Assembly (NCBI RefSeq): GCF_036227485.1
Contig: NZ_CP109479.1
Span: 1,302,001-1,366,000 of the forward strand
Source: Streptomyces sp. NBC_01451
GTDB lineage: Bacteria > Actinomycetota > Actinomycetes > Streptomycetales > Streptomycetaceae
Direction of reading: 5' to 3'
Length of the DNA: 64,000 nt
Shown one piece after another: positions 41,050-45,740 of this stretch (position 1 is the first letter of the stretch; each line of letters starts with the position of its first letter). Under the pieces are notes generated by a model. The model was given only the letters and a program-made list of their open reading frames with translations. It was not told where the DNA came from and ran no database searches. Position numbers and translations under genes: made by a program.

Positions 41050-41440
41050 AGTGCTCACGCGGGAGCTCGTAACGCGGTCCGACGGCAAGGCGTGCTTCAG
41101 CTGGGCCGGCTTCCTCACCCACCAGGGGAGACCCTCGAAGGACGTGCCCGCGTTCGACGCCTTCGATCTGTCCACGTCCGAGACGAACCAAGCTGAACAT
41201 GATGAGACCCATGTACCACCTCGCCCAGGACGTCAACGAGGAGCGGTCCAGGCAGTGGTGGGTCCGCGACGGTGTCCCGGAATCCGCCACCTCGCTCTCG
41301 GTCGTCGGCAATCTGCACGCCCGTCCGGGCGACGACGTCAACACCTCGCGCCGCATGGGACGCCGGCGGCGCGGACGAGGACCCCGGCGACTTCATCGCG
41401 TGGATCGCCCGGGTGCCGGGCCGCGAGGACTCGGTAGCGA
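41050..41440 (+). pseudogene. Frameshifted C-terminal remnant of a tannase/feruloyl-esterase-like hydrolase
   Basis: Three rightward frames carry consecutive pieces of one family: KDVPAFDAFDLSTSETNQ (about 41136-41190), then MRPMYHLAQDVNEERSRQWW continuing to SLSVVGNLHARPGDDVNT (41202-41345), then WDAGGADEDPGDFIAWIARV (about 41356-41415). The second and third pieces align with the leftward relic at 42862-43205 (RWWIHLGTEDTDNSL; WDEGHGANSDAADFITWVAQ). At least two frameshifts and loss of the N-terminal catalytic half make it a pseudogene. Confidence 0.55.
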
Positions 41441-41561: not shown

Positions 41562-42683
41562 TCAGAAGGAGAACTCTCCCCCGTAGTCGGTGTCGTGGTC
41601 CCGGAACACGGTGTGGTAGTGGATCTGGTTCTGGTAGACCAGACCGTTCTGGCAGACGAACTCGATCCAGACGCCCGGTCCGTCGATGCGTACATAGTTG
41701 CCGGTGGCGTCCAGCCCGGTTCCCCCGGAGTACGCGATGTAGGTCTCGTCGAGTTCCGACTCGTAGGCGCTCAGCACGGAAGCGGCACTCGTGTCGTCCG
41801 CGACCTCGACCCACGGCGCGATGGCGTTGAGCACCAGTTCCTGCTGATCGTCGGAGAGCTCACTGACGGCGAGGCCCTCCTTGGTCTCCGGGAAGTCGCC
41901 GTCCTCGCCCGGTCCGACCAGCACATCGCTGTACGAGGCGGAGAGTTGGGCTTCCGACAGCTGGGAGGAACTCAGGCTGTCGAGCATGTCGAGCAGTCCG
42001 TCCCGCATCCCTGACAGGGGGGCGTACGAGGTGCCGTCGTCGTCGGTCCAGCTGGTGGGCTCGACCCCGATGAAGAAGGGGCTGACGCCTTCGACCGCCC
42101 CGTCCGCGTAGGTGAGGTTCACCGCGAGGTGGTGGCCGCCGAAGTGCAGCTGCCAGGTGCCGTCCGCGCTCGGGGTGCCCAGGAACGCCAGGAAGTAGAT
42201 GTCGCTGCCGTACCCGCTGGCGGTCTCACCGAGGACGTCGTCCGCGGCCAGGATCTGCGAGATCTGGTCGTATCCGGTGCCTGTGCCCGTGCCTGTCGCC
42301 GCCTTGAGTACCGCCTTGGCGGCGGCCAGCTGATCATCACTGAGCGAACCCAGCTCGATGCCCGGCCGGCAGGAAGAACCGCACGGGAGGTTGGACCAGG
42401 CGGTGGCGTTCTCCTCGGTGAAGTCGAGGAGCACCTCGGCCTGCTGGTCCTCGTCCAGGGTGGCCAGGAAGGCGTCGGCGGCGGCCACCACGTCCGAGAC
42501 GGACGTGGTGGCCTCGGTCGAGACCGAGGACTCAGTGGACGAGGAGCTGCTGCCGGCTTCGGACGTGGCATTCGCCGTGGCGGCGTACACCGCTCCGCCG
42601 AGAAGGGCCGTCGTGACGGAAAGGGCCAGGCCGGCTCGCTTCCAGCGTCCCATCGACCTGCGGTGCGCGTTGTTGCTGTGCAA
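41562..42683 (-). CDS. DUF3500 secreted protein (first copy)
   Basis: 373 residues. A signal sequence (GRWKRAGLALSVTTALLGGAV, cleavage near TANA) and a Ser/Thr-rich segment precede a DUF3500 domain. Visible conserved features are DAFLATLDEDQQAEVLLDF (about 75), FGGHHLAVNLTYADG (about 200) and the C-terminal QIHYHTVFRDHDTDYG (His-x-His, Arg, DYG). DUF3500 has no assigned function; the HH and HxH motifs suggest metal binding. The start is TTG at 42683, supported by AGGAGG (42696-42691) seven bases upstream in the reading direction; the longer frame to 42740 contains no better signal. A paralogue lies at 44643-45740, with a metal transporter between. Confidence 0.8.
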   Translation of the reverse strand: MHSNNAHRRSMGRWKRAGLALSVTTALLGGAVYAATANATSEAGSSSSSTESSVSTEATTSVSDVVAAADAFLATLDEDQQAEVLLDFTEENATAWSNLPCGSSCRPGIELGSLSDDQLAAAKAVLKAATGTGTGTGYDQISQILAADDVLGETASGYGSDIYFLAFLGTPSADGTWQLHFGGHHLAVNLTYADGAVEGVSPFFIGVEPTSWTDDDGTSYAPLSGMRDGLLDMLDSLSSSQLSEAQLSASYSDVLVGPGEDGDFPETKEGLAVSELSDDQQELVLNAIAPWVEVADDTSAASVLSAYESELDETYIAYSGGTGLDATGNYVRIDGPGVWIEFVCQNGLVYQNQIHYHTVFRDHDTDYGGEFSF

Positions 42684-42861
42684 TTCACTGCCTCCTTGAA
42701 AAAGGACTCCGGAGGACTTCCGAAAACTCCTTCGCAGCACACGCGAAAGGAAAGAGAGTTTCAGGTCGTCCCGTACCGTTGTCAGGGCGAGATAAATTGC
42801 ACCGCGCAGCTCTGTGATTTACACCCCGGCGAATCTTTGTTTTACCCGTGGATTATGGACC

Positions 42862-43205
42862 GGGTCCACAGACGGAAAACCCTGACCCTGATTGAGCCGA
42901 AATATCAGCCGGCCACCTTGGGCGACCCATGTGATGAAATCGGCCGCATCACTGTTCGCACCGTGCCCCTCGTCCCAGTACATACGATGACTCACGTCGG
43001 CACCGAGGTTGTCCAGTGCGGCCGCGAGATTGGACGTCACTGTGAGCGAGTTGTCGGTGTCCTCAGTGCCGAGGTGGATCCACCAGCGCTTCGCCCGGTC
43101 GGGGTTCTTCTGCCCGATGAAGTACATCGGGCTCATCAGACACAGATTCTCGGGGATTTCGAGGTCGGTGATGTGAATCGGCCGACAGACCATGGTCATG
43201 GCCAC
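42862..43205 (-). pseudogene. C-terminal remnant of a tannase/feruloyl-esterase-like hydrolase
   Basis: The leftward translation NLCLMSPMYFIGQKNPDRAK, RWWIHLGTEDTDNSLTVTS and YWDEGHGANSDAADFITWVA (catalytic-His region GH) is the C-terminal part of an alpha/beta-hydrolase of the tannase/feruloyl-esterase-like group. The nucleophile-bearing N-terminal two thirds are missing; upstream the NicO gene ends at 43242. It is homologous to the rightward relic at 41050-41440, in inverted orientation around the DUF3500 gene. Confidence 0.6.
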
Positions 43206-43241
43206 CCGGTATACGAGGCATGCCGCATTCCTGCGCGTGAC

Positions 43242-44639
43242 CTATCCCATGAGTCCGCCCACTCCGTTGACCGCGATCGTCAGGCCGAGAACAGTCACCA
43301 CACCGGCGGATGCCGTCGGCAGCCACCGCGTCACCGGGCTCGGCGCCGGGCGCCGGAAGCGTTCCAGACCCTCGCGGGCTTGCACCAGAATCAGGCCCAG
43401 GCCGACCAGGACACCCGCGAGGCCGACACTGAAGGCGATGATCATGGTGAGACCGAGCACTGTGCGGCCCAGGCCAATCGCGAGCAGGAGGACGGTGAGC
43501 GCCTCGGGACAGGGGACGATTCCGCCGGAGACACCCATGGTGGCGATGGAGCGGAAGGTCGTGGGCATGACGAGCGGATGATGATGATGGTGCCCGCCGG
43601 GCCCATGGCTGTGTCCTTCCTGGTGAGCGCCCGCATGAGCGTGCGCGTGGGTGCGCTCGGCCTCGCTCTGCCGCGGCCATCTCCGTCGCAGCAGTCGTAC
43701 CCCCAGGACCAGCACCACCGCCCCGGCGGCCACCTCCAGCACCGGCACCATGACGCCCGGCACGATGAACTGCCCCGCGACCAGCACCGCCGTGCCGAGA
43801 GCGATCACGGAGGCCGTGTGCGTGACGGTGATGACGCCGCCGAGGATCACCGCCTGGCGGGCCGTGCTGTGGGCGCCCACCAGGTAGGAGGCGAGCAGGG
43901 CCTTGCCGTGGCCGGGGGTGAGGGCGTGGAAGGCACCGAGCAGCGCGCAGGTGCCGATCAGGGCCAGCAGGGCCCAGGGCGAGGAGAGCGGGGAGCTCAG
44001 GGCGCTGAGCATGGCACCTCCGCCCGACGCGACCTGCTGCTCGGAGCCCGCTGGACTCGTCTCCGACGCGGGGGAATCGGCGAGCGCAACGATGATTGTG
44101 CGTCCTTCGTCGGCGCGTTCGACGTCCGCCGGTTCCGCCGGCGCTCCGGCCGGAACCAGCACGTTCGCCTGCACGGTCGTGGCCGAACTGCCCGGCGGGT
44201 CGTACGCGTTGGTGAAGGTGACGCTGCTGCTGCCGGACGGCAGGGTGGCCGTGAGGTCGAGGGTGACGGCACCGGCGGCGGAGGCGAGCAGCGCGTAGTC
44301 CGCGTAGGTGGACCTGGCCAGCTCCAGCGGGACGGCATGTCCGTCGGCCTCCAGTCCGAGCGCCGACATCACGCGCCGGGCATGTGCGGCCCTCTCGTCG
44401 GCGTCGAGTTTCCCGTCGCCGTCGGTGTCGAGGGCTTCGGCGAAGGCGGGGGCCACCAGCACGCCCGGTGTGAGGGCGAGTTCTATGTCGAGCCGGGAAT
44501 CGTCGGGGGTGAGGTAGGCCTGCTGGACGATCTCGTCCGTGGGATGGGCCTGGGCCGGTGCGGCCGCGAGGCCTGACCCGGCGGCGGCCAGCACGAGGCC
44601 GACCGTCCACCGGGCCAGGCGGCGTTGGACAGGGCTCAA
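43242..44639 (-). CDS. NicO/RcnA-like nickel-cobalt transporter with EF-hand and His-rich loop
   Basis: 465 residues. Signal peptide (1-31) and extracytoplasmic domain (about 32-215) containing an EF-hand-like loop DTDGDGKLDADE (71-82). Then come six or so membrane helices with the NicO signature GAFHALTPGHGKALLASYLVG (235-255), a His-rich cytoplasmic loop (331-354: HAHAHAGAHQEGHSHG then HHHHH), and GGIVPCPEALTVLLLAIGLG. Predicted to move Ni, Co or another divalent metal. Start is TTG 44639, three bases after the upstream DUF3500 stop, with GGGGGA at about eight bases, so the two are coupled. Confidence 0.85.
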   Translation of the reverse strand: MSPVQRRLARWTVGLVLAAAGSGLAAAPAQAHPTDEIVQQAYLTPDDSRLDIELALTPGVLVAPAFAEALDTDGDGKLDADERAAHARRVMSALGLEADGHAVPLELARSTYADYALLASAAGAVTLDLTATLPSGSSSVTFTNAYDPPGSSATTVQANVLVPAGAPAEPADVERADEGRTIIVALADSPASETSPAGSEQQVASGGGAMLSALSSPLSSPWALLALIGTCALLGAFHALTPGHGKALLASYLVGAHSTARQAVILGGVITVTHTASVIALGTAVLVAGQFIVPGVMVPVLEVAAGAVVLVLGVRLLRRRWPRQSEAERTHAHAHAGAHQEGHSHGPGGHHHHHPLVMPTTFRSIATMGVSGGIVPCPEALTVLLLAIGLGRTVLGLTMIIAFSVGLAGVLVGLGLILVQAREGLERFRRPAPSPVTRWLPTASAGVVTVLGLTIAVNGVGGLMG

Positions 44640-44642
44640 GGA

Positions 44643-45740
44643 TCAGTCCCCCGCGCCGTAGTCGTTGCCGGTCTCACGGTAGATGGCGTGGATATGGCTG
44701 GTGCCGCCCATGTTCCGCTGGTGGGCGAACTCGATGGTGAAGTCGGGACTCTGGACGCGGTAGTAGATCGGCTGGTCGCTCGACGTGGAACCTGACCAGG
44801 CGAAGTACGTGGAGCCGAGGTTCGCCTCCGCCGACTCCAGCTTGGACGCGGCCTGTTCGTCATTGAGCGGGCTGATCCACTCGGCGACCAGGTCGAGCAG
44901 CAGCGTCCGCTGCGCGGTGGTGAAGGTGGACGCCTGGACGCCCTCGTAGGCCAGGGTCTTCCCGTCCTGACCAGCGCCCAGGATGATCTCGGTGACGGCC
45001 GTGTCCAGGACGGCGGCGGCGAGTTGGGTGCTGTCGAGGGACTGGACGACCGCGAAGGCCTTGTCGGTCTCGCCGGCCAGCGGCTCGTAGCTCACACCGT
45101 TGAGGGTGTAGGTGGCGGGCTGGACGCCGAAGAGGGTCGGGGCCAGGGTCATGGTGTCCCCGGTGAGCGTGATGTTGACGGCCAGGTGGTGGCCGCCGTA
45201 CTGGACGGTCCACCGTCCGGTCGAGGACGGGGTGCCCAGGATGCGGATCCAGTAGTGGTCGGAGCCGTAGTCGTCGCTTCCGGTGGAGGTGTGCAGGACA
45301 CCGTCGGCGGTGGTGATGCCGACGACCTGCTCGTATCCCTCGTCGCTGAGCGCCGCCTGCAGGATGGCGAGCACCGCCGCCCGCTGGGTGGAGGTGAGCG
45401 TGTCCATGCGCAGACCCGCGCGCGTGAACAGGCCGTCGGGCAGGTTGGACCACTGGGAGAGGTTGGACTGGGTGCGGGAGGCCTGGACGGTCGACTGCTG
45501 TGTGCTGCTGAGCGTGGCCAGGAACGCGTTGACCGCGGCGAGGGTCTCGGAGGCCGCCGTGGCCTCGGCGGAGTAGGCGACGGTGGTGGTGTCGGTGTCG
45601 GTGCGAGCGACGGACCCGAGTCCGGCGTCGCTCGTCGAGAGGACTGCCGCGACCAGAGCCGCGGTGGCGACGGTGAGGGCTGCACGGCGGGGGCGGCGAA
45701 AGGGGCGGGGCGAGACGGAGTTTCTCGGGAGTGGTAACAC
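44643..45740 (-). CDS. DUF3500 secreted protein (second copy)
   Basis: 365 residues with a signal segment (PRRAALTVATAALVAAVLS) and a DUF3500 domain: VNAFLATLSSTQQSTV (about 70), YGGHHLAVNITLTGD (about 185), and the C-terminal SHIHAIYRETGNDYG. These match the first copy at the same places (GGHHLAVN; HxH-x3-R-x4-DYG). The protein ends at GAGD a few residues after that motif. The GTG at 45740 is preceded by AGGAGGCCAC. It is the first gene of a leftward set DUF3500-NicO-(esterase relic)-DUF3500. An imperfect palindrome lies about 100 bases upstream. Confidence 0.8.
   Translation of the reverse strand: MLPLPRNSVSPRPFRRPRRAALTVATAALVAAVLSTSDAGLGSVARTDTDTTTVAYSAEATAASETLAAVNAFLATLSSTQQSTVQASRTQSNLSQWSNLPDGLFTRAGLRMDTLTSTQRAAVLAILQAALSDEGYEQVVGITTADGVLHTSTGSDDYGSDHYWIRILGTPSSTGRWTVQYGGHHLAVNITLTGDTMTLAPTLFGVQPATYTLNGVSYEPLAGETDKAFAVVQSLDSTQLAAAVLDTAVTEIILGAGQDGKTLAYEGVQASTFTTAQRTLLLDLVAEWISPLNDEQAASKLESAEANLGSTYFAWSGSTSSDQPIYYRVQSPDFTIEFAHQRNMGGTSHIHAIYRETGNDYGAGD

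Follow-up and report, generated by a model that had tools for sequence, protein, structure and literature searches.

A DUF3500 protein and its coupled NicO-type neighbour with an anglerase-like outer domain: a possible extracellular metal partnership in Streptomyces

Introduction

The window analysed here, 64,000 nucleotides of Streptomyces sp. NBC_01451 (NZ_CP109479.1, positions 1,302,001 to 1,366,000), carries a two-gene unit in which an exported DUF3500 protein (DUF_A) is followed by a NicO-type transporter whose outer domain resembles the metal-binding anglerase (Ang) domains. Comparison with other genomes bears out the link of DUF3500 with metal transporters, which is present in records of several phyla, and DUF3500 and its membrane partner probably exchange metal outside the cell. 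An earlier note on this DNA described a three-gene metal system with two DUF3500 proteins around the transporter. That trio is a conserved DUF_A-NicO pair plus a stray member of a HupE-type pair, because the second DUF3500 protein (DUF_B) belongs to the HupE-linked type and has no HupE here. To our knowledge, exported DUF3500 proteins have no assigned role.

Results

DUF_A (44643..45740, minus strand; 365 aa, GTG start), a member of the NicO-linked group, and DUF_B (41562..42740, minus strand), an exported DUF3500 of the HupE-linked group, score 293 and 254 bits with PF12006 (cut-off 27.2). The open reading frame (ORF) that they flank, a 465-aa protein with a signal peptide and a TTG start (43242..44639, minus strand), scores 40.3 bits with PF03824 (NicO; cut-off 27.7). 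The families, coordinates and strands given earlier are right. Reading along the minus strand, the order is DUF_A, the NicO gene, a tannase scrap and DUF_B. The DUF_A stop (TGA, 44643-44645) and the NicO start (TTG, 44639) are 3 nt apart, in agreement with the reported coupling of the two upstream genes. The scrap, a C-terminal piece of a subtype-B tannase (42819..43205, minus strand; NF041556, E 1.2e-21, profile positions 389-462 of 463), lies outside the unit and, by separating NicO from DUF_B, leaves DUF_B uncoupled, which removes it from the proposed three-gene unit. The GTG and TTG starts described for the three genes stand for DUF_A and NicO; for DUF_B the listed GTG at 42740 appears doubtful and the in-frame TTG at 42683, preceded by AAGGAGG, is likely the true start.

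Pairing of DUF3500 with NicO recurs in other genomes. Among the best 120 relatives listed for each protein, from 8000 candidates scored, 39 DUF_A relatives lie on a contig of exactly the same length as that of a NicO relative, and two pairs have adjacent locus tags (ACTI_70740/70730 and Ade02nite_32650/32640). A genome scan with a NicO alignment of 24 sequences (the window protein and 23 relatives) placed DUF3500 within the flank of 23 of the best 80 loci of 197. In 20 of these, DUF3500 is the immediate upstream neighbour on the same strand; a HupE gene stands between DUF3500 and NicO in L076 and L077, and DUF3500 is downstream on the opposite strand in L118. By record title the 23 loci are Actinomycetota and two Chloroflexi (L087, L091). 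The 57 loci without DUF3500 are mostly more distant, with L079 and L098 among the nearer ones and L078 cut by a contig end. Genes in fetched regions were called with a home-made gene caller, and a start-stop spacing script could measure 10 loci: in nine, the closest candidate start of the partner falls inside a range of -30 to +60 nt around the DUF3500 stop, at -4 to +18 nt, and the tenth value (589 nt, L091) is perhaps a script error. Within the genus, 24 of 121 sampled genomes contain DUF3500, six copies being found in the 10.27 Mb genome of the window, and the DUF3500-NicO pair was seen only at the window's locus. A PF03824 control in 10 chosen genomes, compared by eye, gave no NicO match beside a DUF3500 match.

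A second partner is the HupE/UreJ-2 permease (PF13795): among 60 DUF3500 genes taken from the genus and phylum samples, those of the DUF_B kind have it downstream, including two in the genome of the window itself (L155, L156). Against a cut-off of 24.5, four actinobacterial partners score 119-152 bits and three partners from the Acidobacteria sample 142-146 bits. In the 121 genus genomes, 9 of 17 HupE_UreJ_2 genes adjoin DUF3500, with about 0.005 expected by rough arithmetic (positions compared by eye, split matches merged), and L103 combines both partners in the order DUF3500-HupE-DUF3500-NicO. DUF_B is the sister of L073_12093, which is counted as linked although its downstream HupE is only a piece lacking the first part; no HupE match was found in the window. 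The Sec-type DUF3500 gene of L176 (G084), also of the DUF_B kind, overlaps an ORF that matches HupE weakly (58 bits) and is perhaps what is left of a HupE gene. Partnered DUF3500 occurs in Actinomycetota and Chloroflexi records and in the Acidobacteria sample. The linkage being real across several phyla, the lack of statistical linkage that the earlier note named as grounds for abandoning its idea is therefore not what the genomes show.

Linked DUF3500 proteins belong together in phylogeny. In an 88-row tree a single clade of 40 takes in every NicO- or HupE-linked row. A tree of 149 rows (148 different, L092 and L200 being the same gene) adds samples centred on genomes in records titled Acidobacteria and Chloroflexi; there, the 49 linked rows are all enclosed by a clade of 55, the smallest to do so, with a support of 99 (100 when a richer model is used), the six unlinked members being DUF_B, L163, L176, L294, L311 and L313. 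No partner was found for the 94 rows outside it, including 14 Tat-clade rows and many Sec-exported Acidobacteria-sample proteins; this means none found with profiles of 24 NicO and three HupE sequences, in stretches that contig ends often truncated. The 49 partners are a window-type outer domain on NicO (24), HupE with its own outer domain (18), the window-type outer domain on HupE (3, from two loci) and the same domain on an anchor (4). The tree requires eight changes of partner type, where shuffling gives a mean of 46, and a single clade for the 31 rows with the window-type outer domain is neither shown nor rejected (AU p 0.133). As to sampling, the NicO alignment supplied the loci of 26 of the 49 linked rows, and four genomes to which NicO loci had led (G510, G511, G517, G520) supplied 7 of the 61 rows by which the tree was enlarged. 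A second Acidobacteria-sample batch was picked partly for a tandem-type look, and only some matches of two further-phylum scans were fetched. In the genus sample, 8 of 50 DUF3500 match rows were unfetched at 8 kb (seven fragments or gene halves and one full gene on a 7.6-kb contig), and six further match rows from four genomes (G147, G151, G447, G492) were left out.

Export types were judged by eye from N-termini and a hydrophobicity score, without a signal-peptide predictor. Tat-exported DUF3500 proteins are never linked (0/13, or 0/14 counting the truncated L154). Over 60 genus and phylum regions and the two window genes, Sec-type proteins are linked in 11 of 14 cases and others in 0 of 48 (Fisher 7e-10). 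Sec export was nevertheless rejected as a predictor of a transporter: because many Sec-exported DUF3500 proteins of the Acidobacteria sample are partnerless, it is membership of the clade, and not how the protein is exported, that predicts a partner.

The outer domain of the NicO protein (about residues 32-190; 44070..44546, minus strand), modelled as a β-sandwich, would begin at His32 after signal cleavage, and its best solved structure match is the fold of Cu-bound Ang-1 (9gce). The external EF-hand-like loop noticed earlier is upheld: DTDGDGKLDADE (residues 71-82; 44394..44429, minus strand), recognised by alignment and loop pattern, keeps D71 and E82 in 24/24 aligned NicO sequences and is flanked by helices 63-70 and 80-92 in the structure model, giving a D-x-D-x-D loop with E at position 12 between two helices, with Pfam EF-hand_5 scoring below its cut-off (14.8 vs 25.9). 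The loop is present in 24/25 linked NicO ORFs, 48/57 unlinked ones and 5/6 Acidobacteria-sample partners; A-H near the predicted cleavage site in 24/25, 35/57 and 6/6. The His-rich loop (about residues 328-354; 43578..43658, minus strand) also exists as described, and its H331 is invariant in the 24 sequences. The RcnA-type model NF007454 gives 102.2 bits, below its cut-off of 195.

In the window the membrane part is NicO, without HupE/UreJ-2. HupE/UreJ-2 is joined to a window-type outer domain only in the relatives L288 (30% identity over 152 residues to the window NicO protein) and L293. At four loci (L290, L295, L308, L329), the gene downstream of DUF3500 encodes 209-229 aa, whose match to the NicO profile (88-99 bits) is confined to roughly its first 190 positions; the protein finishes with a hydrophobic segment and then basic residues, the form of a C-terminal membrane anchor. 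The fetched 5-7 kb beyond yielded no membrane part of NicO or HupE, other transporter families not being searched. Beside DUF3500, therefore, the window-type outer domain rides on three membrane parts, and transport is not the constant element, because four loci carry the domain on an anchor with no NicO or HupE part found. Homology of this outer domain with that of actinobacterial HupE partners is not supported: an apparent hhalign match vanished without signal peptides and equalled controls. In L298 (8862-9419) DUF3500 and a complete HupE protein are separated by an outer domain of the HupE kind that stands alone (186 aa, without a Pfam match).

NicO proteins with a related outer domain also occur in ZnuABC and ArsP_1/DUF1980 gene sets, in L120, L125, L141 and other loci of records titled Chloroflexi, and the L120 protein has an extra C-terminal β-propeller. 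The hints as to metal differ: 9gce points to copper, and near NicO relatives in records titled Anaerolineales or Chloroflexi there are ABC genes of the Zn or Mn type together with ArsP_1 and DUF1980.

In DUF3500 itself, GGHH (DUF_A residues 182-185; 45186..45197, minus strand) and HxHxxxR (H349, H351, R355; 44676..44696, minus strand) are conserved with and without a partner: H184 in 49/49 linked and 98/100 unlinked rows, H185 in 49/49 and 99/100, H349 and H351 in 49/49 and 98/100. The same holds for E337, just before HxHxxxR, and R355 (49/49 and 99/100) and for Y326 (49/49 and 98-99/100); D146 marks the linked clade (49/49 vs 10/100). The GGHHLAVN and C-terminal HxHxxxR noted previously are indeed in both window proteins but are family-wide, and the His motifs are no argument for delivery to a transporter, because partnerless cytoplasmic and Tat-exported members keep them equally.

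A test of family membership matched the fold of the solved DUF3500 member, ApmL/Amc20 (PDB 9x86), termed a dehydratase in its PDB title. Aspergillus nidulans AN10530 (DUF3500) appears in the review PMC12388069 as a putative ring-cleaving dioxygenase in gallate breakdown, so that the two reports name different reactions. Among neighbours of cytoplasmic DUF3500 genes (97 of 128 called neighbours taken in; best 25 of 128 families) those found most often include FAD monooxygenases (6), short-chain dehydrogenases (5), alpha/beta hydrolases (5), TPP enzymes (4) and FAA hydrolases (3). In L158 (G095) a near relative of Amc20/ApmL lies in a specialised-metabolite cluster with a transketolase, aminotransferases and an acyl carrier protein (ACP), probably amipurimycin-like; a guess assigning Amc20 to amycomicin was unsupported, and the PDB title points to amipurimycin. 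From the family-wide residues, the catabolic neighbours, the AN10530 report and the L158 cluster, we regard DUF3500 proteins as enzymes, probably with a metal site, rather than as carriers of metal. We know of no partner gene for ApmL/Amc20 or AN10530.

Around DUF_B, a second tannase C-terminal scrap (41190-41412, plus strand) brackets the gene together with that at 42819-43205 (minus strand), the two being about 39-48% alike in pieces, and a tannase-like stretch also adjoins the Tat-type DUF3500 in L012/L168. No match to a Zur-like box was found in the window, and no RNA structure beyond chance upstream of DUF_B (42741-42830). Elsewhere in the window's own genome (L003/L154, near G000:C1:4958235) a truncated Tat-type DUF3500 is in frame with an apparent response-regulator start, probably by rearrangement.

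Discussion

We favour, tentatively and at somewhat less than an even chance, an explanation in which DUF_A is an exported DUF3500 metalloenzyme and its coupled membrane neighbour is its metal partner, passing metal outside the cell. The anglerase-like outer domain, led by its N-terminal His and braced by a Ca-type EF-hand loop, would hold a transition metal and pass it, extracellularly, to a His/His/Glu/His/His site of DUF3500. The transporter module (NicO here, HupE/UreJ-2 elsewhere) would feed or drain the outer domain and could be swapped or absent, and DUF_B would be a related enzyme of the HupE-linked type without its own partner here. The families, coupling, linkage, module swapping and domain resemblance behind this explanation were computed. 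Metal binding, contact between the proteins, direction, the metal and the reaction are what we infer. We count in its favour that all 49 partnered rows fall in one clade, the coupled spacing, one outer domain on three membrane parts, and the Ang-1 match together with the metal binding reported for Ang domains; also that the possible metal site is common to members outside the partnership, that the solved member is called an enzyme and that catabolic enzymes occur near cytoplasmic members. Tat-exported DUF3500 proteins, which could be loaded inside the cell, are partnerless, which we take to favour an extracellular metal partner for the linked clade. We hold more loosely that this one exported clade is a dedicated client of anglerase domains in cell-surface metal exchange, with the enzyme, not transport, as the constant purpose.

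A metal uptake system, near the earlier idea, seems unlikely. DUF3500 would then be a secreted scavenger, or free metal from a ligand, and hand metal to the anglerase domain for the permease to carry inward. Capture and uptake are indeed proposed for anglerase-permease proteins in PMC12537917 (Nat Commun 2025), and NicO relatives sit in the ZnuABC and ArsP_1/DUF1980 sets described above (ZnuA is near 16/57 unlinked and 0/23 DUF3500-linked loci). However, these Zn-uptake sets have no DUF3500 in the flank, the His/Glu site extends to cytoplasmic members, anchor-only partners have no NicO or HupE permease part in the fetched stretch, and the NicO part is of RcnA type, albeit with a score under that model's cut-off. 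RcnA is an exporter in E. coli. Thus the claim of binding proteins exchanging metal with a transporter keeps its linkage, and gains an outer domain resembling a solved metal-binding domain, but loses its support from His motifs and from transport as such. In the explanation that we favour, an enzyme with a partner of anglerase type takes the place of the carrier trio, and the earlier interpretation is partly supported.

We give no better prospects to DUF3500 acting on extracellular plant or sugar compounds, by ring cleavage or dehydration, with a partner whose sole part is to keep it at the surface or to clear surplus metal, so that the metal link is indirect. The proposed role of AN10530 in gallate breakdown (PMC12388069), the term dehydratase for ApmL, the monooxygenases, hydrolases and FAA hydrolases near cytoplasmic members and the tannase pieces at DUF_B and L012/L168 would all suit it, yet it leaves unexplained the partner's N-terminal His and metal permeases of two families. 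A neighbourhood that arose by chance or hitch-hiking, with no functional link, could be argued from the single occurrence of the DUF3500-NicO pair among 121 genus genomes; the same arrangement in Actinomycetota, Chloroflexi records and the Acidobacteria sample, the 9 of 17 HupE_UreJ_2 genes beside DUF3500 and the tight spacing make it very improbable, and the counts already oppose it.

The nearest known systems are the Ang-1/Ang-2-HupE/UreJ-2 permeases, named in 2025 as anglerase-permease proteins, whose Ang domains are reported to bind metal (PMC12537917). They share with the window protein a signal peptide, a predicted N-terminal His, a β-sandwich outer domain and a membrane metal permease, and DUF_B-type partners carry the same Pfam 13795 permease; in contrast, the window protein has NicO as permease, an EF-hand loop in the outer domain and a coupled DUF3500 gene. 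The passages of that paper considered here mention no client protein; its main text contains no occurrence of 'NicO', 'EF-hand' or 'calcium', and did not yield DUF3500; proteins of unknown function rank first in its neighbourhood counts and may include DUF3500 unnamed. Our literature search found no DUF3500 paper that also mentions NicO. Like the nickel/cobalt exporter RcnA, the window protein has a NicO membrane part and a His-rich loop; unlike it, it stays below the NF007454 cut-off and has an added outer domain. CopC-CopD works in a comparable way, with an outer domain bearing an N-terminal His joined to a membrane metal transporter, from families that differ from those of the window.

If our explanation is true, an anglerase domain can be carried by a NicO channel of exporter type, by a HupE/UreJ-2 permease or by an anchor alone, and the linkage pattern suggests an interchangeable membrane module in anglerase-type systems. 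The link between DUF3500 and anglerase domains would give each a testable partner, and would offer a route by which a secreted enzyme acquires its metal outside the cell.
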